From NCBI GenBank assembly GCA_016191115.1, contig JACPPG010000028.1, positions 1 to 64,000 on the forward strand: a stretch of DNA of 64,000 nucleotides, read 5' to 3'. Position numbers and translations under genes: made by a program. A model generated the notes under the pieces. The model saw only the letters and a list, made by a program, of their open reading frames with translations, did not search any database and had not been told where the DNA came from. Of this stretch, positions 39,125-49,285 are shown piece after piece; the stretch's first letter is position 1; the number at the start of each line of letters is the position of its first letter. The stretch is from Planctomycetia bacterium (lineage in GTDB: Bacteria > Planctomycetota > Planctomycetia > Pirellulales > JACPPG01).

Positions 39125-39694
39125 ATGCTTGGACATGAGCTGGCAGGCCATCGCGAGGCGACCAAGGTGGGCCGGCTTTCGGCCGATCGACTGATCGACT
39201 TGTGGCCGCGCACGGCGTCGCAGGTCGTCAAGTACGGGTTCGCGCTGGAATTGGCCGATCTCGAGCCGCCGCGGACGGGCATCTTCGACGGCCTGCGGAT
39301 CGTCGTCGATCCGGACGTCAACTTCGAGATGCAGTGCTTCGTGCTGTTGCACCTGTTCGGGCATTCCGTTCAGTGGGTCGCGCCGTCGCTCGCGGCCCAA
39401 GTCGACGCCTTGCAGCAAACGGCCGAGCGCGACCGCTTCATGCAGGTGCTGCACGACTACGAGCACCAGGCGGGCCAACTGGGGCTGCAACTGTTGCACG
39501 AGGCCGGCGTTGGCGACTTGGACGGCTGGTTCAGCGATTTCGTGGCCACCGACTGGCGGTACGTGGAACGGTTTTATGCCACCGGCCAAATCCTGCCGTG
39601 GGAAGAATGCCTGACGGCGGCCGAAGAAGCGGTGCGGCCGCTGGCGATCCCCGCGCTCAAGCATCATCGCGTGGAAGTGCGGTACGCGTTTTGA
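39125..39694 (+). CDS. Hypothetical protein, possibly degenerate ImmA/IrrE-type metallopeptidase
   Basis: A 189-aa protein of unknown family. Residues ~78-90 read LLHLFGHSVQW and residues ~113-130 DYEHQAGQLGLQLLHE. This spacing resembles the HExxH...E-x-(x)-A pattern of zinc-peptidase-like DUF955 proteins, but the Glu after the first His is Leu, so classical catalysis is not expected. No membrane segment or signal peptide is seen. It is 58 bases after the hydrolase gene, convergent with the gene at 39715. Alternatives are a plain helical protein with chance histidines. Confidence 0.5.
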   Translation: MLGHELAGHREATKVGRLSADRLIDLWPRTASQVVKYGFALELADLEPPRTGIFDGLRIVVDPDVNFEMQCFVLLHLFGHSVQWVAPSLAAQVDALQQTAERDRFMQVLHDYEHQAGQLGLQLLHEAGVGDLDGWFSDFVATDWRYVERFYATGQILPWEECLTAAEEAVRPLAIPALKHHRVEVRYAF

Positions 39695-39714
39695 TCCGGC
39701 GCGACTGCCACCGT

Positions 39715-40587
39715 TCAACCGCCCTTCGCCTGCACGGTGGGCCGTTGCAAGAGTTGCGGCGCCTCTTCGTGGAGGGATTGCAGGCCGGTGGCGAACTGCA
39801 GTTCATTCATCGTCCGTTCGGTCTCGACCATGCTCGAAGCGACCTGGTCGACCTGCCCGGTGATGAAGTCGGGCTCCTGCCGATTGACGGCCAGCTCGCT
39901 CAGGGAGCGGATCTTGTTTTCCAGCCGCTCCAGCTCCAACTGCAGGATCTCGTAGGTTTGCTTGGCCTTCCGCAGGTTCGCCAGCCGGTCGTTGCAGGTC
40001 TGCAGGTTGTCCTCGAGCGCTTTGCGGATCTTCTGCGCGTTCGGGTCGTCGCCGGCCGGGGGCGCGGCCTTGAGCCGCTTCTCCAACCGCTGGATGTCGG
40101 CCGTGATCGGCTCGGGCGCCGTCTTCTCGAAAAACCGCTCCAACGAATACTGCGTGAACAGCAAGCGCAAGTAGATCCACAGCAGCCGATCGAGCCCCGC
40201 CAGTTGGAGATCGTCCAGCGGGCGAACGCCTTCGGCGCTTGAATGCTTGAGCGCCAGTGCGATCTGCCGCAGCTCCAGGCAACGATTCCGCAGCGCGTCG
40301 AACCGCTGCAGCGCTTGCTTGGGCAACGACCGAACGATCTGCCGCAGCATCTGCTCTTGCGCGACGGAGCTTTGCGCTTCGGCGCTCTTGGCCGCCTGGG
40401 CGTCGACGTAGCTTTGGAACTTGGGGTGCGTCCCCAAAAGACCTAGATAGAGAAGCTCACCGGCCGCCACGAGCGGGATGACGACGCCGGCGGCGCCGCT
40501 TACGACGGCCAGACCCAGCCCGCCGAAAAGGGCGAGCAGGTTCCAGCGGTTGGCGAACGCGACTTTGAGGTACTTGGTGAACCGCAC
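39715..40587 (-). CDS. Membrane-anchored coiled-coil protein, last gene of the PspA/ABC cluster
   Basis: A 290-aa protein. A helical hairpin in the membrane is likely at residues ~14-52 (LLALFGGLGLAVVSGAAGVV, then IPLVAAGELLYLGLLG), followed by ~230 residues of heptad-like helix (KIRKALEDNLQTCNDRLANL, YEILQLELERLENKIRSLSE) that should project into the cytoplasm or periplasm. No enzyme motif is visible. The start is GTG at 40587. It lies 37 bases after the ABC ATPase gene and ends the seven-gene unit that begins with PspA. It could be a tether or structural subunit for the transporter or for PspA (inference). Confidence 0.65.
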   Translation of the reverse strand: MRFTKYLKVAFANRWNLLALFGGLGLAVVSGAAGVVIPLVAAGELLYLGLLGTHPKFQSYVDAQAAKSAEAQSSVAQEQMLRQIVRSLPKQALQRFDALRNRCLELRQIALALKHSSAEGVRPLDDLQLAGLDRLLWIYLRLLFTQYSLERFFEKTAPEPITADIQRLEKRLKAAPPAGDDPNAQKIRKALEDNLQTCNDRLANLRKAKQTYEILQLELERLENKIRSLSELAVNRQEPDFITGQVDQVASSMVETERTMNELQFATGLQSLHEEAPQLLQRPTVQAKGG

Positions 40588-40624
40588 GGCGGCACTCGGA
40601 TTCCAAGGGACGGCGCCACGATTT

Positions 40625-41560
40625 TCACGTGGCCACGTGTTCCGGCTTCTGCTCCAACTGGGCGATCAGGTCGCGCAAATAATCCACGGTCTTCAGGAAG
40701 CGGGGCTGGCTGGCCATCTCGCGCGCGGGGCGGTCGGCCGGCTCGACCTCGAGCTCGCGCGCGATCGTGCCCGGCGAAGTGCTCATGACGTACACGCGGT
40801 CCCCCAGGAAGACCGCTTCCTCCAGCGAGTGCGTGACAAAGAACACGGTCGCCTCGACGGTGCGCCACAGACCCACGAGCAAGTCTTGCATATTCATCCG
40901 CGTTTGCGGATCGAGGGCCCCGAATGGCTCGTCCATGAGGATAATCCGCGGCCGCAGCACGAGCGTGCGGGCGATCGCCACGCGTTGCCGCATCCCGCCC
41001 GACAGCTCGTGCGGGTATTTGTACTGGTCCTTTTCGACATTGAGACCGACGCGGCCGATCCACTCGCGGCCCAGCGCGTAGCGTTCCTTGCGGCTGACGC
41101 CCTGGCACTCAAGGCCAAAGGTCACATTATCGAGCACCGTTCGATGATCGAAACTAGTGTAGTCCTGAAAGACCATGCCGCGGTCGGCGCCCGGTTCGGT
41201 GACGGGGCTGCCGAGCACCAATACGTCGCCGCTGGTGGCCGGAAACTGCGGCTCCAGCCCGGCGATGAGACGCAAGATGGTGCTTTTGCCGCATCCGCTG
41301 GGACCCAACACGCAGATGAACTCTCCCTTGTCCTTCAGGTCCTCGACGACGAAGCTCACGTCGCGGATGGCCGTGTACTCGTTCGCCCGCCCGGCGTTGT
41401 AGGTCTTTGTGACGTTGCGGAACTCAACCACGCGCGGCCTGGCCAGATCCTCGGGCTGGCGAGGCCGCACGAGCACCTGGCCCATGCCCACCGGCTGGAC
41501 CGGCGGCGGATCGGCCGGCGGTTGGCCGGCGGCGGCTGTCGATGGCTGTTCGACGCTCAT
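40625..41560 (-). CDS. ABC transporter ATP-binding protein (SsuB/TauB-like)
   Basis: A 311-aa ATPase with a Pro-rich N-terminal tail (AAAGQPPADPPPVQPVG) and a complete nucleotide-binding domain: Walker A GPSGCGKST, Q-loop VFQDYTSFDH, signature LSGGMRQRVAIARTL, Walker B IILMDEPFGALDP and switch His (FVTHSLEEA). The sequence type is that of sulfonate/taurine/nitrate importers. Its ATG overlaps the TGA of the permease gene (ATGA), so ratio is coupled. Together with the permease and OmpA-fused binding protein it makes one importer; the substrate is not readable. Confidence 0.88.
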   Translation of the reverse strand: MSVEQPSTAAAGQPPADPPPVQPVGMGQVLVRPRQPEDLARPRVVEFRNVTKTYNAGRANEYTAIRDVSFVVEDLKDKGEFICVLGPSGCGKSTILRLIAGLEPQFPATSGDVLVLGSPVTEPGADRGMVFQDYTSFDHRTVLDNVTFGLECQGVSRKERYALGREWIGRVGLNVEKDQYKYPHELSGGMRQRVAIARTLVLRPRIILMDEPFGALDPQTRMNMQDLLVGLWRTVEATVFFVTHSLEEAVFLGDRVYVMSTSPGTIARELEVEPADRPAREMASQPRFLKTVDYLRDLIAQLEQKPEHVAT

Positions 41561-42618
41561 GGTTTCTCGCTGGTAACTGCGGGCGCGGCGGGTGGAGGCG
41601 CAGTCGGCACGGACGAGGCGCTTTCGCCTGCCGTACCGGCCGCGCGCGCGGGCCGGATCACCAGCGACTTGAGGTCCTCCCAACCGTGCAGCGTGCCGCG
41701 GACCGCCGAGTTAAGCACGCCACGGCCGCCGTAACGATAGGGGAACAGTTCGCGCTGGATCCAGAACAAGAGCCGATCGATCACCAGGGCGACGACCGGG
41801 ATGATCAGCAGGACCAGGATGATGTGCCCTGTGATGCCGCGGCGTTGCGACGTCAAGATAATGTCGCCGAGTCCCCCGGATTCTCCGCCGATCTTCACGA
41901 GCTCGGCGAGCATGATATAGCCGAACGCCAGCCCGAACAGCAGCCGCAGCGAGTTGAAGACGCTCGGCAGGGCTAGCGGCACGAGCACTTTGAGAATCGT
42001 TTGCCATCGATTGGCTCCCAAGGTGTAGGCCGTGTCGACGTATTGTTCCCCGACGTCGGAAACCGCCCGCGCGGTATCGGTCAGCACGAACGCGACGCAG
42101 GCGATGAAAATGAACATTGTCTTCTGCGTTTCCCCGATGCCGAACAGCAAGAACGTCACGGGGATCAACGCCGCGATGGGAATGTTGCGGCCGAAGATCG
42201 ACAGCGGGGCGAAGAACGCGCTGATCCACGAGAAGCACCCGCACAGCACACCCAACGGCACGCCGACGGCCGCGGCCAGGGCGAAACCCAGTGTCACGCG
42301 GCGGAGGCTGAGCATCGTGTTGCGCGTCAAACCGCGGTCGAACCACAGACTGTGGAACGTGTCGAGGGTTTCTTTCGGGCTGGGGAGCGAGGCGGCGCTA
42401 ACGATCCGCTGTTCCGGCTCGTCGGGGTCGCCGGCGGTCACGAACCACCAGATGCCCAGCACCGTGGCCAGACAGAGAAGTCCGAACACGACCGACTGCC
42501 ACGCGGGCGTGGGGCGGCGGAGGCTGAAGAATTCGCGGAGTTCCGTTCGCCACCACGACTGGCGCCGTGGCGGCGTGTCAGGCGACGAGCCGCGATCGGC
42601 TGTGTTCTGCTCAACCAT
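41557..42618 (-). CDS. ABC transporter permease (SsuC/TauC-like)
   Basis: A 353-aa inner-membrane protein with about six hydrophobic segments. The EAA cytoplasmic loop YTLGANRWQTILKVLVPLAL is where the ATPase docks. The N-terminal 35 residues and a ~40-residue C-terminal tail rich in Ala/Pro (AAGTAGESASSVPTAPPPAA) exceed the usual 250-aa length. It lies between the binding-protein gene (24 bases upstream) and the ATPase (ATGA overlap). Family relatives import sulfonates, nitrate, cyanate or thiamin-precursor molecules; none is indicated here. Confidence 0.87.
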   Translation of the reverse strand: MVEQNTADRGSSPDTPPRRQSWWRTELREFFSLRRPTPAWQSVVFGLLCLATVLGIWWFVTAGDPDEPEQRIVSAASLPSPKETLDTFHSLWFDRGLTRNTMLSLRRVTLGFALAAAVGVPLGVLCGCFSWISAFFAPLSIFGRNIPIAALIPVTFLLFGIGETQKTMFIFIACVAFVLTDTARAVSDVGEQYVDTAYTLGANRWQTILKVLVPLALPSVFNSLRLLFGLAFGYIMLAELVKIGGESGGLGDIILTSQRRGITGHIILVLLIIPVVALVIDRLLFWIQRELFPYRYGGRGVLNSAVRGTLHGWEDLKSLVIRPARAAGTAGESASSVPTAPPPAAPAVTSEKP

Positions 42619-42642
42619 GGCTGATGATGCTACGCACGAGCG

Positions 42643-44379
42643 CTATTGCTTCTCGGCGGAGAAGACCTTGATCTCGACGCGGCGATTCTTGGCCTGGTTG
42701 TCCGGGTCGTTGGGATCGGCCGGCCGGTCCCAGCCCACGCCTTGCGCGCTGAACTGATTGGGATCCAACTTGTACTTTTCGGCCAGGGCTTCCTTGACGG
42801 CGTTGGCGCGGTTCTCCGACAGCTCCTTAACCAGGCTGGCCGGCACCTCGCCGCGCCGCGAACTGTCGGTGTGCCCTTCGATAATGATCCGCGCCGCGCC
42901 GAACTGGCCCGCCAATTTCGCGATGTCCTCCAGAACGAAGTCGACGTGCGGGTCGTACATCTCTTCGACGGTCTTGCCGTCCGCTTCCTTCGTGATCGTC
43001 TTGTGCAGGTCCCAACTGTTGGGAAAGAAGTGGATGATCACCGTGTTGGTGAGGATTTCGTCCGATTCGGCGCGGATCTGGCCGACGCTTTTGGGCGCCA
43101 GCCGCAGCTTGTATTCGTCGCGCTGCGAGGAGTACTTCTCTTCCTTGCCGAGCTTCTCGATCATGGAGAAATCCATGACCTGGTCGAAGGGAACCGGCTG
43201 GTGCGAAATGGCGCCGATCCGCCGATACAGGTAGTACGCCTGATTCCAGATGCGCTCGAAGTTGGCCGGATTGTTCTGGTTCATGAAGAACTGGTAGTTC
43301 TCGGCCCAGTTGGTGCTGTGTGCGTCGCCGAACATGTTGATCGTGTCGCTGGCCGGGATGCCATAGCCTTGCGACATGAATTCGGCGCATTTCTTGCGAT
43401 TGGCTTCGTCCTTCAGGGCCTGCATGCCGTCGAAGATGCCGCGGGTCAACGCCTCGATCAGGTCCGGGTGATCGTGCGCGAAATCGGCCCGCGCGAACCA
43501 CACGTCGGCGATCAGCTTGTTGGCCGTGGCCGTGGTGACCAACATGCGGTTGCCCTTCACTTTTTCCAGGTTGTAGATGTCCGGCGCCCAGGAGACGCAG
43601 CCGGCGATGTCGCGCTGGCTGTTGAAGGCGGCGGCCGCCTGAAAGGCATCCTCGGTGAACACCATTTGCACTTCGGCGGGCTGGACGCCGCCGGCCACCA
43701 GCATGTTGAGCGCGAAATAGTGCGAGGGGGAATTCTGGGCCAGCACGAGCTTCTTGCCCCGCAGATCGGCCACGGTCTTGATGTTCTCGCGGACGACGAT
43801 GCCGTCGCCACCGTTGGAGAAATCGACCTGCTGGAAGATGCGCGGCATGACGCGGCTATCTTTCGGCTTGCCCGTCGCATCGACGAAGCCCTCCATGAAC
43901 AAAGGCACCATGTCGAGCGTCGCCCAGCCGACGTGGACGTTGCCTTGCGCATAGGCGTCGCGCATGGCTACGGGATTATCGATGAGCACGAGCGAGACCT
44001 TGAATTCCTTGCCGTCGGCCGTCTTCCAGACCTTGCCCGGTTTGAATCCTTCGTTGGCCGAGATGATCGGGCCCCAGCCGGCCCACACGTTCAAGGCAAA
44101 CTGGACGGTGTTATCGTCGAGCGGCTTGTAGCTGGAGGTTCCTTTCACCGGCGGCAGTTTCTCCGCCGGGCGGAACTTGTACTCCTTGACGGTCGTGACG
44201 CCGCCGGCGTCGGCCGCCTCGGCCGCGGCCTCGCCCCCGAGCGTGCCAAGATCGATCTTCTGGTTTTCCTGCTTGGCCTTGGGCGCCAGGATGTCGGCGC
44301 GCCAGACGGCCACGCCGATCAGGCCCAGCACGACGAGCGCCAGCACGAGGTAAAAGGACGCCTTGGGTTGCCCTGCCAT
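42643..44379 (-). CDS. ABC substrate-binding protein fused to an OmpA peptidoglycan-binding domain
   Basis: A 578-aa protein. One membrane anchor occupies residues ~9-27 (FYLVLALVVLGLIGVAV). A NrtA/SsuA-like periplasmic binding domain spans about 80-430 (FALNVWAGWGPIISANEG, MRDAYAQGNVHVGWATLDMV, DGIVVRENIKTVADLRGKKL). A C-terminal OmpA domain spans ~455-578 (VIIHFFPNSWDLHK ... IIIEGHTDSSRRGEVPASLV, RRVEIKVFSA), with the Asp and Arg that bind diaminopimelate. It would therefore connect the transporter to the murein and hold it in place. GGGAGGATCATTC precedes the ATG. Confidence 0.88.
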   Translation of the reverse strand: MAGQPKASFYLVLALVVLGLIGVAVWRADILAPKAKQENQKIDLGTLGGEAAAEAADAGGVTTVKEYKFRPAEKLPPVKGTSSYKPLDDNTVQFALNVWAGWGPIISANEGFKPGKVWKTADGKEFKVSLVLIDNPVAMRDAYAQGNVHVGWATLDMVPLFMEGFVDATGKPKDSRVMPRIFQQVDFSNGGDGIVVRENIKTVADLRGKKLVLAQNSPSHYFALNMLVAGGVQPAEVQMVFTEDAFQAAAAFNSQRDIAGCVSWAPDIYNLEKVKGNRMLVTTATANKLIADVWFARADFAHDHPDLIEALTRGIFDGMQALKDEANRKKCAEFMSQGYGIPASDTINMFGDAHSTNWAENYQFFMNQNNPANFERIWNQAYYLYRRIGAISHQPVPFDQVMDFSMIEKLGKEEKYSSQRDEYKLRLAPKSVGQIRAESDEILTNTVIIHFFPNSWDLHKTITKEADGKTVEEMYDPHVDFVLEDIAKLAGQFGAARIIIEGHTDSSRRGEVPASLVKELSENRANAVKEALAEKYKLDPNQFSAQGVGWDRPADPNDPDNQAKNRRVEIKVFSAEKQ

Positions 44380-44424
44380 GAATGATCCTCCCGAAATGTT
44401 CGTTTCGACCCGTTGGTCAGTGCA

Positions 44425-44829
44425 CTAACCACGAAACGTGGTCTTCGGCCGCGCGGCCTCCATCGAGTGCAGAATCTGCATCAGGTCGTAGGCCGTGAGC
44501 TCGCACAGCAGTTGGGTGACCTTGGCGTGCATCGCCGCGTCGAGCCGCGGCTCGACTTCCTTCATAAGCGCCACCAGTCGAGACTCTTGCTCGCGCACTT
44601 CGTTCTCGTCCACTTTTCCGTCGGCCAGCGCGTCCATGAAGCCCTTCAGGCGCCGGGCATAGCTGTCGATGAGCGGAGTGTTGGACGCCTCATCGAGCCA
44701 GCTCGAACGGCGGCCGGATTTCGCGGCCGCGGGACTCTTGGAGCGGGTGGCGGACTTCTTGCCGCCGCGCGCGCTTTTGGTCGCCTTCGCCTTGTTCTTC
44801 TTCGTTGCCGCTTTCTTCTTCTTGGCCAT
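44425..44829 (-). CDS. Lys-rich small helical protein in PspA/ABC cluster
   Basis: A 134-aa protein with a strongly basic, Ala/Lys N-terminus (residues 1-42, KKKKAATKKNKAKATKSARG) followed by a compact helical domain (~45-125: YARRLKGFMDALADGKVDEN, MKEVEPRLDAAMHAKVTQLL). The basic tail could contact RNA, DNA or acidic membrane lipids. No family is recognised. It is 47 bases after the AAA ATPase gene and 45 before the binding protein, in one direction, with GGGATGAG before its ATG. Confidence 0.6.
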   Translation of the reverse strand: MAKKKKAATKKNKAKATKSARGGKKSATRSKSPAAAKSGRRSSWLDEASNTPLIDSYARRLKGFMDALADGKVDENEVREQESRLVALMKEVEPRLDAAMHAKVTQLLCELTAYDLMQILHSMEAARPKTTFRG

Positions 44830-44876
44830 GGCTCATCCCGTCGTGGTTCGGTTCGTCGTCAAAGCTCTGTCGGGTT

Positions 44877-46682
44877 TCACTTTTCGTCGATCAACTGACC
44901 GAGGGCCGCAAACCGCTCTTGAAGCTCGGAACGGCCGCCCGGCTGCGCCATCTTGGCCCGCCAGTGGGGGCTGAGAAAAGTCATTTGCGTACATTCCAGC
45001 ACGGCCGCCACCTCTTGCCGCTCTTTTTCGAGTCCTTGGGCCGAAGGAATGAAATCCGCGAGCGCCGCTTCCAGGTCGGCCCGCTGGAGCTGGTTGCGCT
45101 CGGCCACGGCCGCCAGCCGCTTAGCGGCCAGCACAACGCTCTCGACGTCGGCGCCGCTCAGTTGCCGGTCGGTCGCGACCTTGGGAATGGCGTCGGCGGC
45201 AAGGACAATCTTATTCTTCTTCGCCATGGCGGCAAACATGCCACGGATCTCGTCCTCGCACTCCGGGTAGAGAAGGGGGATATGCACCTCGGCCCGCCCC
45301 TGCCGCTTCAGGTCGATCGGCAGCAGGTCAGGCCGGGACGTGAGGAGCATCCACACGATCTTGCCCCGATAGCGGGTATCGCCCATCTGGCTGGCGATCA
45401 TCGAGAAGACGCGTGCCGAGGTGCCGGAATCGCCTTCGGCCTGGCGGCTGCCGAGCGCGGCGTCGGCTTCGTCGATCATGACGACCACCGGTCCCAGCGA
45501 TCGGAGCACGGTGAGGACCTGTTCCAGGTTGCCCTCCGTCTCGCCCACGTACTTCGAGCGGAAGTTGCGCAGCTTGACGCACGGGACACCGATCGAGCCG
45601 GCATAGCATTCGGCAAGAAAGGACTTCCCCGTTCCCACCGGTCCGCAGATCAAATAGCCCATGGGCGCCGTATCGAGCTGGCCGCGGCCGATCGCCGCCG
45701 CGTCGTCGCGCAATCGCTGCTTGGCGGCTTCGTGTCCGACGACGACGTCGAGCGTGTGGTGCGGCTCGATGAACTCGATCAGGCCCTGGCATTGCCGCTC
45801 GATCATTTCGCGTTTGAGCTCGCGAAATCGTTCTCGCCCGGCGGCGCGCCGCGAGTTCTTCGCCTGCGCCAAGAGCACGTCCAGGTTCACCAGCGTCAGG
45901 CCGTTGGATAATTCGGCCAGCTCGCCTGGCGTTATGTCGTCGGCGGACTTGGGCGTCGACGCCTCGGCGCGTTTGGCGAATCGCTCGCGCGCCGCCCGGT
46001 CGGGAAGCGGCACTTCGACCACGGCGACGTGCGGACTGGCGACGAGCCTGTCGTTGATCTCGGTCAACTTGTCGGCCAGCAAACAGACGGCGATGTTGGC
46101 TTGCTTGATGTACGGGTTTTGCGCCCAGTTCAGGAAGCGGACCAGGCGCGCGCCGTCGCCGCGCCCGACGGCCACCGGGTCGCCGGCCGGCACAAGATAC
46201 TGCGCGTACCCGAATAGGAGCGCGATCCTCAGCCGCTGATCGGAGGCATCCTCGACGAGACTGCGCTCGATGAACTGGTCCAATAGCTGCAGCACCTGGT
46301 CGGGGTCGCGCGGCCATTTTCCGATTTCGCCGAAACGGCCGGAAAGATAGCGGACCATCGACTGCAGCCGCTGGGAATCGCGGCCCGCCAGCGGCCGCAA
46401 CCCACGGCTAAGGTCGTAGTGCAGCACCAGGTCCCAACTGCCGAAGAGCTGACCGGCCAGGAACTCGGTCAGATTCGAGCACTCGTCCTGATCCGGCCCC
46501 GCCGAAAAGAGCAGATCGTGGACGTTGCCGCTGACGACGAACAGGCACGTCGTGCCTGAAAAGTACAAATCGGCCAGCTCGTGGGCCCAGGCCGGATACC
46601 AATCAGGCAGATCCTTGCGGCTCCGCGGCTGCGGGGCGCCAGGCGCCGTCGCGTCGGTCGTGTCGGTGGGCTCGGGGGTCAC
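44877..46682 (-). CDS. Classical AAA ATPase paired with PspA
   Basis: A ~600-aa protein. The N-terminal ~330 residues form a conserved but unnamed domain (LPDWYPAWAHELADLYFSGT, TCLFVVSGNVHDLLF). The AAA core spans ~350-520: Walker A CGPVGTGKSFLAE, pore-loop-like SKYVGETEGNLEQ, Walker B VVVMIDEADAAL, and the second region of homology LLTSRPDLLPIDLKRQGRAE with Arg fingers. This is the classical AAA type found in Vps4 and katanin, not the PspF type. The C-terminus is helical. The start is uncertain: GTG at 46682 suits the conserved N-terminus, while TTG at 46775 is possible; neither has a good ribosome site. It follows PspA almost directly. Confidence 0.78.
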   Translation of the reverse strand: MTPEPTDTTDATAPGAPQPRSRKDLPDWYPAWAHELADLYFSGTTCLFVVSGNVHDLLFSAGPDQDECSNLTEFLAGQLFGSWDLVLHYDLSRGLRPLAGRDSQRLQSMVRYLSGRFGEIGKWPRDPDQVLQLLDQFIERSLVEDASDQRLRIALLFGYAQYLVPAGDPVAVGRGDGARLVRFLNWAQNPYIKQANIAVCLLADKLTEINDRLVASPHVAVVEVPLPDRAARERFAKRAEASTPKSADDITPGELAELSNGLTLVNLDVLLAQAKNSRRAAGRERFRELKREMIERQCQGLIEFIEPHHTLDVVVGHEAAKQRLRDDAAAIGRGQLDTAPMGYLICGPVGTGKSFLAECYAGSIGVPCVKLRNFRSKYVGETEGNLEQVLTVLRSLGPVVVMIDEADAALGSRQAEGDSGTSARVFSMIASQMGDTRYRGKIVWMLLTSRPDLLPIDLKRQGRAEVHIPLLYPECEDEIRGMFAAMAKKNKIVLAADAIPKVATDRQLSGADVESVVLAAKRLAAVAERNQLQRADLEAALADFIPSAQGLEKERQEVAAVLECTQMTFLSPHWRAKMAQPGGRSELQERFAALGQLIDEK

Positions 46683-46776
46683 GCTACATTGCCAGGTGAG
46701 AACGACCAATCGATGCGCCGCGCCGCCGCTCGTCGGCCTGATGAAACGGGCGCGTCGACCTCTTCGCCATGACAAC

Positions 46777-47538
46777 TCAATTCTGCTGGCGCTCGGTGGT
46801 CTTGCCAGTCACGGCCGGCCCCAGTTCCTTGGCGGCCTGGGGAACGGCCGCGGTCTCCGGCGTCACGAGGCCCATGCTGACCTCAAAATCCTTCAGCGCC
46901 TGCTCGGCCAATGCGCCTTCCATGGCCTTCTCGCGCTTGATGTCGGCGATGCCTTCGCCCGAGAGGTCGGCCGCGACGCGGGTCTTGGCGCGATTGAGGC
47001 TGATCTTGTCCTGGATCACTTGCTCGATCTGTCCGAAGTCGGTCGTAACGTCGAAATTGAAGCTGGTGGCCAGCTTGGAGATCTCGGCCTCGGCGCGGCT
47101 CATCTTGAGCTCGGAGTCGTACTTGGCGATCTTCTCGCGGATCTTGGCCAGCTTGCCGGTGGCGTGCTTGATCTTGGAGAGATTGTTGTTGTACGCCTCC
47201 TCGTGGAGCTTGAGCTGCCCTTCGTTCTCGCCCAGGTCCTGCTTGGCCTTTTGCAGCTCGAGCGCGAACCGCGCCGCCGTCTCGCGGTCGCCCGTTTGCA
47301 GATAGGCCTTGACTTTCGCCTCCAGGCTGCTGACGTGCGCCTTGTCGTTGGCAACCTGCCGGCTGACGCGCTCGACCAAGGCGCGGTATTGCTCCAGCCC
47401 TTCGCGCCCTTCCTTAAGTTGGGCGACGGACGAGTCGTACTCGTACTGCATCTGGGCGATCGGGTCGGCGGTCCAGAAAAAGTTCGCCAGCTTGTTGACC
47501 TGGGCCCGCATCGCACGCCAAAACTTGCCGAAAATCAT
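46777..47538 (-). CDS. pspA: PspA/IM30 family protein
   Basis: A 253-aa protein, helical almost throughout. It starts with an amphipathic helix (MIFGKFWRAMRAQVNKLANF) and the typical DPIAQMQYEYDSSVAQLKEG. Long coiled segments follow (EAKVKAYLQTGDRETAARFA, RADLEAA-free), and a Pro/Ala tail closes the protein. PspA, IM30/Vipp1 and ESCRT-III share one fold and polymerise on stressed membranes, maintaining the proton motive force. AAGAGCATAGCC precedes the start. A good promoter lies about 115 bases upstream. It opens the seven-gene unit that includes a classical AAA ATPase and an ABC importer, not the usual pspF/pspBC set. Confidence 0.85.
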   Translation of the reverse strand: MIFGKFWRAMRAQVNKLANFFWTADPIAQMQYEYDSSVAQLKEGREGLEQYRALVERVSRQVANDKAHVSSLEAKVKAYLQTGDRETAARFALELQKAKQDLGENEGQLKLHEEAYNNNLSKIKHATGKLAKIREKIAKYDSELKMSRAEAEISKLATSFNFDVTTDFGQIEQVIQDKISLNRAKTRVAADLSGEGIADIKREKAMEGALAEQALKDFEVSMGLVTPETAAVPQAAKELGPAVTGKTTERQQN

Positions 47539-47651
47539 GGCTATGCTCTTTTTGTAAGACCGTGGGCACCGGTTGAAGGACCGATGCTGAAAATCGCTGT
47601 CACCGTCACCGATAGAATCGCCCCAATAGATCGAAAAACCCTCGCTGAGCT

Positions 47652-47680
47652 GTCATACCTTGCGCGGGGGGCACTGTCAA
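47652..47680 (-). promoter_or_regulatory. Sigma-70-type promoter of the pspA cluster
   Basis: On the minus strand TTGACA, 17 bases, TATGAC. Both boxes are near consensus with ideal spacing, about 114 bases upstream of the pspA start. No sigma-54 site is seen in the same 300-base gap, in contrast to proteobacterial psp operons. Confidence 0.6.
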
Positions 47681-47839
47681 ACGCCGGACCAGAGCCGCCG
47701 CGAAACGGCAGTCAGCGAGGCCACACGGCGCGCCGCCTGCACCGCTTGTGGGCCCAATGCGGGAGCCTCGGACGTTGGCGTTCAGGCGTGCCATTCAACC
47801 GGGGCGACGTCGTCAGATCGGCGGAGGCACCAAGACGAA

Positions 47840-49285
47840 TCAGCCTTCGATGATCTCGCCGATCAGACGTGCTTCGCGGCCGGCGGTGATTTGCTGCTCG
47901 CGCCCGCTGTGTAGATAGCTGAGCTGCCGGTGGTCCAGGCCAAAGAGGTGCAATAGCGTCGCCTGGAAGTCGTTGGGCGTGACGACGTCGGTCACCGCGC
48001 GGTGGCCGAACTCGTCGGTCCCACCATAAGTCATGCCGGGCTGGAAGCCGCCGCCGGCCACCCACATGCTGAAGCCTTGCCCGTTGTGGTCCCGGCCACT
48101 CTTGGCGGAATCGCCGTGATTCTCGGTAACGGGTAAACGGCCGATCTCGCCGCCCCAATGCACGACCGTCGAGTCGAGCATGCCGCGCTGCTTCAAGTCC
48201 TTGACCAGCGCGGCGGCGGGTTTGTCGGTCCGCCGGCAGATGGCCGGCAAGCCGTTGCGGATGTCGCTATGGTTGTCCCACGGCTGGCCGGCCAGAAACA
48301 ACTGCACGAATCGCACGCCGCGCTCGACCAGTCGCCGGGCGATCAGGCAGCGCGTGCCGTACTCGCGCGTTGCCGGGTCGTCGAGACCGTAGAGCGCGTG
48401 CGTGGCGGCAGTTTCGCGCGAGATGTCGAGCGCCTCGATGGCGGCCGTCTGCATCGCCGCGGCCAATTCGTAGCTGGCGATCCGCGCTTCGAGGTCGGCC
48501 TCGCCCGGGTGCTCGTCGAGGTGTCGGCGATTCAGGTCGCGCAGGAAGGCGAGATTCTGCTCCTGCACCGCGCCCCGCACATGGAGCGGCGGTTCGAGAT
48601 TCAGGATCCGCGGCTCCTTCGGTCGCAACACGGTCCCTTGAAACAAGGGGGGCATAAAGCCGTTCGACCAGTTGCTGACGCCGTCGACCGGAAGGCCGCC
48701 CGGATCGGTCAGCACCAAATAGGCGGGCAGCTCCTGGCTTTCGCAGCCCAATCCGTAAACGAGCCACGAACCCAATGTCGGCCGGCCGACTACGCCGGGA
48801 ATGCCGCCGTGAAAGTAGCGGATGGAAACCTCGTGCCCGTTGGCGCCGGTGTGCATCGAGCGGACCAGGCACACGTCGTCGACGATGTCGGCCAGGTTCG
48901 GCAACAGCTCCGAAATCTCCGTGCCGCACCGGCCGCGCTTGGCGAACTGCCACGGGCTGCCAAAGAGCGTCTTCGTGGCGCGGTTGATGAAGCTGAACTG
49001 CACCTCTCCCGGATACTCGGAGCCGCTCAATCGCGACAGCTCCGGCTTGGGATCGAAGAGGTCGACGTGCGATGGGCCGCCATGCTGAAAGAGGGAGATC
49101 ATCGCCTTGGCGCGCGGGGCAAAATGCGGCGGCTTCGGCTTCAGATCAAAATAGGTCACTTCCTTGGGGAGCTTTGCCGGCACGGCGTTGGCCGATTGCT
49201 GCGCGCTGAGCCATGCCAGCGCGACAGCGCCAATGCCCATGGCATTCTCAGTCAGGAACTGGCGGCGGGAGAGGAAAGGAGTCAT
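47840..49285 (-). CDS. DUF1501 domain protein (second set)
   Basis: A 481-aa exported DUF1501 protein with a Tat-type leader (SRRQFLTENAMGIGAVALAW). Conserved blocks are AKAMISLFQHGGPSHVDLFD, TEISELLPNLADIVDDVCLV, GSWLVYGLGCESQELPAYLV, VHWGGEIGRLPVTENHGD with RDHNGQGFSMWVAGGG, and HLFGLDHRQLSYLHSGRE. It is a distant paralogue of the gene at 32433. It follows the PSCyt1/DUF1549/DUF1553 gene by 75 bases in one direction and forms the second such pair in the window. The 300 bases at its 3' end contain the pspA promoter, facing the same way. Confidence 0.9.
   Translation of the reverse strand: MTPFLSRRQFLTENAMGIGAVALAWLSAQQSANAVPAKLPKEVTYFDLKPKPPHFAPRAKAMISLFQHGGPSHVDLFDPKPELSRLSGSEYPGEVQFSFINRATKTLFGSPWQFAKRGRCGTEISELLPNLADIVDDVCLVRSMHTGANGHEVSIRYFHGGIPGVVGRPTLGSWLVYGLGCESQELPAYLVLTDPGGLPVDGVSNWSNGFMPPLFQGTVLRPKEPRILNLEPPLHVRGAVQEQNLAFLRDLNRRHLDEHPGEADLEARIASYELAAAMQTAAIEALDISRETAATHALYGLDDPATREYGTRCLIARRLVERGVRFVQLFLAGQPWDNHSDIRNGLPAICRRTDKPAAALVKDLKQRGMLDSTVVHWGGEIGRLPVTENHGDSAKSGRDHNGQGFSMWVAGGGFQPGMTYGGTDEFGHRAVTDVVTPNDFQATLLHLFGLDHRQLSYLHSGREQQITAGREARLIGEIIEG

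Follow-up and report, generated by a model that had tools for sequence, protein, structure and literature searches.

A cluster of seven genes that joins a PspA/IM30-family protein and a classical AAA ATPase to an OmpA-fused ABC importer was analysed in a 64,000-nucleotide stretch of a planctomycete genome (Planctomycetia bacterium, assembly GCA_016191115.1, contig JACPPG010000028.1, positions 1 to 64,000), hereafter called the window. We give a probability of roughly 55% to the reading that the core of this cluster is an ATP-driven membrane-remodelling pair composed of PspA and the AAA protein, with the importer as a common but optional addition. By analogy, the unit may work like ESCRT-III and Vps4 with other parts, rather than being a member of the Vps4 family. 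The relevant features are as follows.

46777–47538, minus strand: PspA/IM30-family protein of a divergent subfamily, 253 amino acids (PF04012, 46.3 bits)
44877–46682, minus strand: classical AAA ATPase, about 601 amino acids, with a proposed GTG start (PF00004, 84.7 bits)
44425–44829, minus strand: basic protein, 134 amino acids, with a Lys-rich disordered tail and a conserved helical domain containing an ADGxVxxxE loop
42643–44379, minus strand: membrane-anchored NMT1/TauA-type solute-binding protein (SBP) fused to an OmpA domain, SBP-OmpA (PF09084 and PF00691)
41557–42618, minus strand: ABC permease of the TauC/SsuC/NrtB type (PF00528, 71.4 bits)
40625–41560, minus strand: ABC transporter ATPase of the TauB/NrtCD type (PF00005, 93.6 bits)
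39715–40587, minus strand: all-helical transmembrane/coiled-coil (CC) protein, gene 7 (AlphaFold2 prediction; no Pfam family)
46816–46830, minus strand: PspA tail motif KELGP, residues 237–241, proposed AAA recognition tag (alignment and motif count)
47652–47680, minus strand: promoter-like site TTGACA-N17-TATGAC, 113 bases 5' of the PspA start (pattern match)

The partnership of PspA and the AAA protein is near-obligate. Among 377 genomes of the class, the window's own included, 68 carried a PspA of the window type at E up to 1e-20 and 62 the AAA protein at E up to 1e-60. All 62 AAA genomes also hold this PspA type, and six genomes have PspA only (Fisher p 1e-64, with kinship uncorrected). 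In 58 of the 62 genomes the genes share a contig and are no more than 850 bases apart; in the other four they are on separate contigs. In a phylum sample, 38 genomes carried both genes, three PspA only, 14 AAA only and 337 neither; that is, AAA occurred in 38 of 41 PspA genomes versus 14 of 351 others. At least four of the 14 AAA-only genomes (G059, G121, G164 and G267) do have a PspA gene beside AAA, which the single-sequence search had missed. This linkage and co-occurrence back the original prediction, which had taken PspA and the neighbouring classical AAA ATPase as a likely remodelling pair.

The pair also appears to be marked in the PspA sequence itself. In AAA-linked PspAs, a linker of variable sequence is followed in the C-terminal tail by [KR]x[LMI]G, usually with GP at its end. 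The motif was present in 109 of 113 distinct readable AAA-linked tails (74 with P), a count that excludes matches at the helix end (111 of 113 in a looser count), and, when these tails were crudely clustered by sequence, in 36 of 39 clusters; shuffling the tails over 500 rounds gave a mean of 1.7 and a maximum of 7. Across 20 aligned PspAs, K237 and G240 are invariant. Two further linked tails without an anchor (L181 and L173) visibly carry the motif and stand outside the 113.

PspAs without a linked AAA gene served as controls, with 22 readable tails (21 in the tightened motif count); one sequence (L242, from G707, with no AAA found) was dropped as its tail was not anchorable, and L215 and L225, in which the expression matched at the helix end, were scored motif-free by eye. 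The motif was absent in 11 of 14 PspAs that either came from genomes with no AAA found (n = 9; motif-free in G472, G001, G009, G004, G047 and G158) or were second copies away from AAA (n = 5; the window's own genome, G465, G508, G497 and G633; motif in none of the five, with only a DRLGP variant in G465). It was kept in seven of eight PspAs whose AAA gene lies elsewhere in the genome or is cut at a contig end (G026, G641, G393, G065, G264, G329 and G074). Twelve stronger-scoring canonical PspAs from the window's own genome and its relatives (L001, L189–L195, L197 and L208–L210) had no motif in their last 60 residues.

The neighbours other than AAA were compared in the same way. PspA–AAA loci with none of the other five genes in view keep the motif (L099, L102, L105 and L106). 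PspAs beside the basic protein, with AAA not adjacent, lack it (L215/L221 in G009, L240 in G472 and L247 in G480); because the two adjoin there without a neighbouring AAA, PspA and the basic protein may be direct partners. Second PspAs that stand beside the transporter and away from AAA were motif-free (L244 and L245) or had DRLGP only (L243). Since, by elimination among the neighbours, the motif follows AAA best, the AAA protein is the likely reader of the tag, which it would bind directly. In a tree built from 61 PspA cores, seven changes are needed to account for the ten placeable motif-free rows, at least three of these changes being forced by well-supported branches, and the tag was therefore probably lost or gained more than once; several motif-free rows lie on long branches and the bootstrap of this tree is not settled.

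The AAA protein has a predicted two-part architecture, with a degenerate AAA-like N half and a C half whose residues suggest activity. The C half contains a Walker A (GPVGTGKS), a Walker B (MIDEAD) and a DLKRQGR stretch, and the pore loop carries an aromatic residue (KYVG in the window, KWVG in the family consensus). The Walker and arginine-finger residues are invariant across 14 aligned AAA proteins. The N half has no P-loop and gave only a weak match, to the lid region of p97 (E 7e-4 over the whole sequence, 0.41 for the best single stretch), which fits a dead AAA copy without proving one. Among the best 60 of 269 matches, the nearest solved chains were a VCP-like ATPase, Cdc48 and p97, and the named models scored 69.5 bits for PAN, 66.2 for CDC48 and 35.4 for CdvC. 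Pfam scans of the window protein and of the 14 aligned members found neither MIT nor Vps4_C. Thus, "Vps4-type", the label originally proposed for this ATPase, was rejected as a family name in favour of a position nearer to Cdc48/p97.

The AAA gene is distributed patchily. In a near-kin sample of 57 genomes, the window's own included, it was found in 16 at E 1e-20 (15 of 56 relatives); about 12 of these, own included (about 11 relatives), are clear orthologues, and the others show 31–33% identity. None of four same-genus genomes carried it, and an even phylum sample, own genome included, had it in 52 of 392 genomes at E 1e-60. The scan of named genomes covered the best 80 of 446 confirmed AAA relatives, most of which are planctomycetes by record title; the non-planctomycete titles comprised four Acidobacteria/Terriglobia, three Myxococcales/Deltaproteobacteria and two given just as "bacterium". 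One record, titled Aquisphaera insulae strain JC669, carries a locus made up of PspA, AAA and the basic protein. The exact seven-gene order of the window occurred in 26 of these 80 loci, of which only 43 offered full context around AAA. The conserved order in relatives that the original proposal called for was thus seen in many loci, though not in all. Six loci titled Acidobacteria, Terriglobia, Myxococcales or Deltaproteobacteria had the order PspA, SBP, permease, ATPase, CC, AAA and basic protein, with the binding-protein gene present three times in one of them, and two other planctomycetes had the order permease, ATPase, CC, AAA, PspA and SBP. Gene blocks reshuffle yet stay together. The unit is thus conserved in relatives, and the cluster is therefore more than chance. 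The absence from same-genus relatives, the low count in near kin and the occurrence under acidobacterial, terriglobial, myxococcal and deltaproteobacterial titles would all suit genes that simply travel together as a horizontally transferred operon with no joint mechanism. We consider this explanation very unlikely, because the blocks remain together through reshuffling, PspA and AAA are found in the same genome even when on separate contigs, and co-transfer alone leaves unexplained why the motif mostly follows AAA.

The gene content of complete loci, defined as those with at least 3 kb before and at least 6 kb after AAA, separates the core from its accessories. Two sets (A, n = 31; B, n = 43) were kept separate and not summed because they share some contigs (L077 and L184 are apparently the same). 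A same-strand PspA lay within 10 kb of AAA in 24 of 31 loci of set A and 39 of 43 of set B, and at least two of the three transporter genes were present in 15 of 31 and 25 of 43, respectively. Bare PspA–AAA pairs made up 6 of 31 and 4 of 43 loci, and in a further 2 of 31 and 7 of 43 the pair was accompanied by the basic protein with no transporter or CC gene in view. Because a good share of complete loci keep PspA and AAA with no transporter gene in view, these two form the core and the importer is accessory. The original proposal of membrane repair centred on a clamped transporter was not borne out by these loci.

The CC gene often comes with the importer, accompanying at least two transporter genes in 13 of 15 such complete loci in set A and 23 of 25 in set B, and in some layouts it directly precedes AAA. 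This pattern would suit a rather unlikely alternative in which the AAA protein serves the importer or the CC protein as a chaperone or unfoldase, PspA seals leaks during assembly and the motif binds another host factor. Pairs of PspA and AAA without a transporter or CC gene are common among complete loci, however, and such PspAs keep the motif, whereas second PspAs beside a transporter and away from AAA lack it. The CC gene is also kept with no transporter gene in view (L077, which equals L184, L100 and L121) or with a binding-protein gene as the sole transporter gene (L096 and L126). As separate observations, the CC gene of L077 (genome G117) takes the position of PspA before the AAA and basic-protein genes, with no PspA seen in the stretch examined, and the unit is split in G465, G508 and G497 (L243, L244 and L245): PspA stands with AAA at one site, and the binding-protein, permease and ATPase genes lie at another together with a second PspA.

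Within the window, the seven open reading frames were confirmed at 39715–47538 and are collinear and tightly spaced on the minus strand, in agreement with the original description of one direction, short gaps and one ATGA overlap. The intergenic gaps in cluster order are 85, 47, 45, 24, −4 and 37 bases, the −4 being the ATGA overlap of the permease and ABC ATPase genes. Judging from the sequence, the GTG at 46682 is the probable start of the AAA gene, which would make the PspA–AAA gap 94 instead of 85 bases. By gene, the Pfam assignments are PspA_IM30, AAA, none, NMT1 with OmpA, BPD_transp_1, ABC_tran and none; the basic and CC proteins had no Pfam family above cut-off. The near-consensus site noted originally at 47652–47680 is present as a sequence pattern with 10 of 12 consensus matches. 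In a scan requiring at least four matches per hexamer, it was the sole minus-strand site with at least 9 of 12 matches in 39600–48000, and about 0.065 sites with at least 10 of 12 are expected by chance per 9.5 kb of resampled sequence. A stock promoter scanner reported no site at the cluster because it requires the final T. The site is thus a candidate promoter, as a pattern match rather than proof of use.

The importer carries features that suggest attachment to the cell wall. The OmpA part of the binding protein, predicted originally as a peptidoglycan-binding type and now recognised by PF00691, aligns with the Omp38 chain 3td3 and has the GHTD and LSxxRAN (LSENRAN) positions, with the conserved Asp and Arg of the peptidoglycan site. 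Wall anchoring is therefore likely. The N-terminal membrane segment of SBP-OmpA was judged by eye. The binding domain, also by eye, is strongly conserved, which suggests one specific ligand. Binding-protein genes are repeated within the operon in L178 (three copies) and L093 (two), hinting at several ligands. The conservation of the binding protein would also fit a unit that is mainly a signalling device, with this protein sensing a solute or the wall state and PspA and AAA adjusting a stress response; in the classical Psp system, PspA acts as a regulator. We regard this as distinctly unlikely, as no transcription factor is recognisable in the seven-gene set, and good matches to transport families were obtained for both the permease and the ATPase. 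For the permease, the 25 best NCBIfam models were all below their own cut-offs.

The two remaining proteins could be membrane-side partners of the pair. The basic protein is conserved in an alignment of 42 sequences, the window's included, and AlphaFold2 predicted a confident helical core with low confidence for residues 1–40, the Lys-rich tail. Its assignment to a known fold was not upheld, as neither a convincing Pfam match nor any PDB match was obtained; its ADGxVxxxE loop is reminiscent of TerB or EF-hand loops. The CC protein was predicted to be all-helical (predicted local distance difference test 86.4, predicted template modelling score 0.74), with a short first helix, a hairpin (15–30 and 33–53) that is hydrophobic as judged by eye, long helices and a Pro-rich tail. 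It matched no Pfam family at E 0.01 and no PDB entry in Foldseek at E 0.001. A relationship to transmembrane Snf7, PspA or ESCRT-III proteins was unsupported, with no Foldseek match and hhalign probabilities of 8.4% and 0.2% against PspA, one of the two comparisons including some alignment members with over-long starts. CC proteins tend to end in a Pro-containing EAPxLL-like stretch (39715–39800 in the window), in which P277 is invariant in the alignment; from its sequence, this end is perhaps a second short motif.

From the gene linkage, the genome co-occurrence, the conserved motor residues and the tail motif with its AAA correlation, we infer the following mechanism. PspA would form assemblies on the inner membrane, where the KxLG(P) tag in its C-terminal tail would be captured by the two-domain AAA protein. 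Threading of this tail through the aromatic pore loops would then pull subunits out of the assembly, a role parallel to that of Vps4 acting on ESCRT-III through MIT-interacting motif (MIM) tails, with a Cdc48-like motor. Two further proteins, the hairpin/coiled-coil one and the basic one, may assist the pair on the membrane side. As a guess, the OmpA-anchored importer could tie the pair to a wall-fixed site or supply a solute signal. The broader proposition that some bacteria own a complete two-part ESCRT-III/Vps4-like engine, in which a PspA filament with a KxLGP handle is pulled by a dedicated Cdc48-like AAA protein, is given slightly less than even odds.

Several points weigh against the remodelling pair and its tag. 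Four of the 113 AAA-linked tails lack the motif (L166 and L170, with K[AQ]LEP, and L095 and L096, with none). Three PspAs bear it despite no AAA being found in their genomes, which are 81% (G241) and 82% (G186) complete or have 10% contamination (G564), and G480 has AAA on another contig and a PspA without the motif. The co-occurrence and motif counts are phylogenetically non-independent, and in the genome searches only a few top candidates were scored for each genome. Finally, the profile of the PspA alignment matched no solved chain at E 0.01, so that PF04012 is the sole source of the ESCRT-III fold assigned to the window PspA. This family was matched at 46.3 bits, against a cut-off of 33.9, over profile positions 1–204 of 220, and by all 20 aligned subfamily members, the window PspA included, at E 0.001. 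The window's own genome contains another PspA of this subfamily, with 54% identity (G000:C86:30250-30984; L002 and L222); it is without the tail motif, and none of the other six genes was seen in the 13 kb examined.

The operon arrangement and a similar inference are not new. In the parts of Ravi et al. (2024; mSystems, PMC11237479) considered here, operons with PspA, an AAA ATPase, an ABC ATPase, a permease and a solute-binding/OmpA fusion are described, PspA is stated to occur occasionally with a two-AAA-domain protein with an inactive N-terminal domain, and ATP-dependent remodelling linked to transport is proposed. The window has this gene content (PspA, AAA, ABC ATPase, permease and binding protein/OmpA fusion) and is a member of that kind. 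Both descriptions share PspA, an AAA protein and importer parts, and the N half of the window AAA protein, which lacks a P-loop, may correspond to the inactive copy. Where the article has PspA or a transmembrane Snf7 homolog, the window transmembrane/CC protein has no detectable PspA relation. Those parts of the article make no mention of the basic helical protein, the tail motif, the near-obligate co-occurrence or the block rearrangements, and its main text contains no whole-word match for MIM or LGP. The near-obligate pairing and the tail tag are apparently new, having been found nowhere in the literature searched, largely titles and abstract openings; at that level, no experimental work on this operon type was found. 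A similar archaeal pair is described in the portion of PMC10936438 consulted, in which an ATPase with a VAT/Cdc48-like N domain adjoins a gene with weak PspA similarity. This likeness, taken from the description rather than from sequences, lies in an MIT-free ATPase of the Cdc48 side next to a PspA-like protein; the pair differs in being archaeal, and the tail motif is unmentioned in that portion.

The window shares a PspA family protein with the classical Psp system (PspF, PspA, PspB and PspC) but, as originally noted, has no PspF, PspB or PspC among its seven genes and has a dedicated AAA protein of another clade. Its NMT1-type binding protein, permease and ATPase belong to the families of the TauABC, SsuABC and NrtABC importers, whereas its binding protein is membrane-anchored and OmpA-fused and the best-scoring named NCBIfam models fall below their cut-offs. 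With the eukaryotic and archaeal ESCRT-III/Vps4 systems, the bacterial unit shares a membrane-assembly protein of the ESCRT-III superfamily (here by PF04012), a classical AAA partner and a short C-terminal tail motif as a motor handle (MIM for Vps4, KxLGP as proposed here). It differs in a motor nearest to Cdc48/p97 without MIT or Vps4_C, and in a tail motif with no evident resemblance to a MIM. If the AAA protein has its origin on the Cdc48 side, separate from that of archaeal Vps4, the unit would represent a second invention of the filament-plus-motor design, often coupled to a wall-anchored importer. In the part of Liu et al. (2021; PMC8281802) considered, it is left open whether PspF stands in for Vps4 in the PspA system and whether a comparable ATPase serves Vipp1. 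This question could become experimentally tractable with a bacterial PspA whose AAA partner is near-obligate and whose five-residue tail tag can be mapped.

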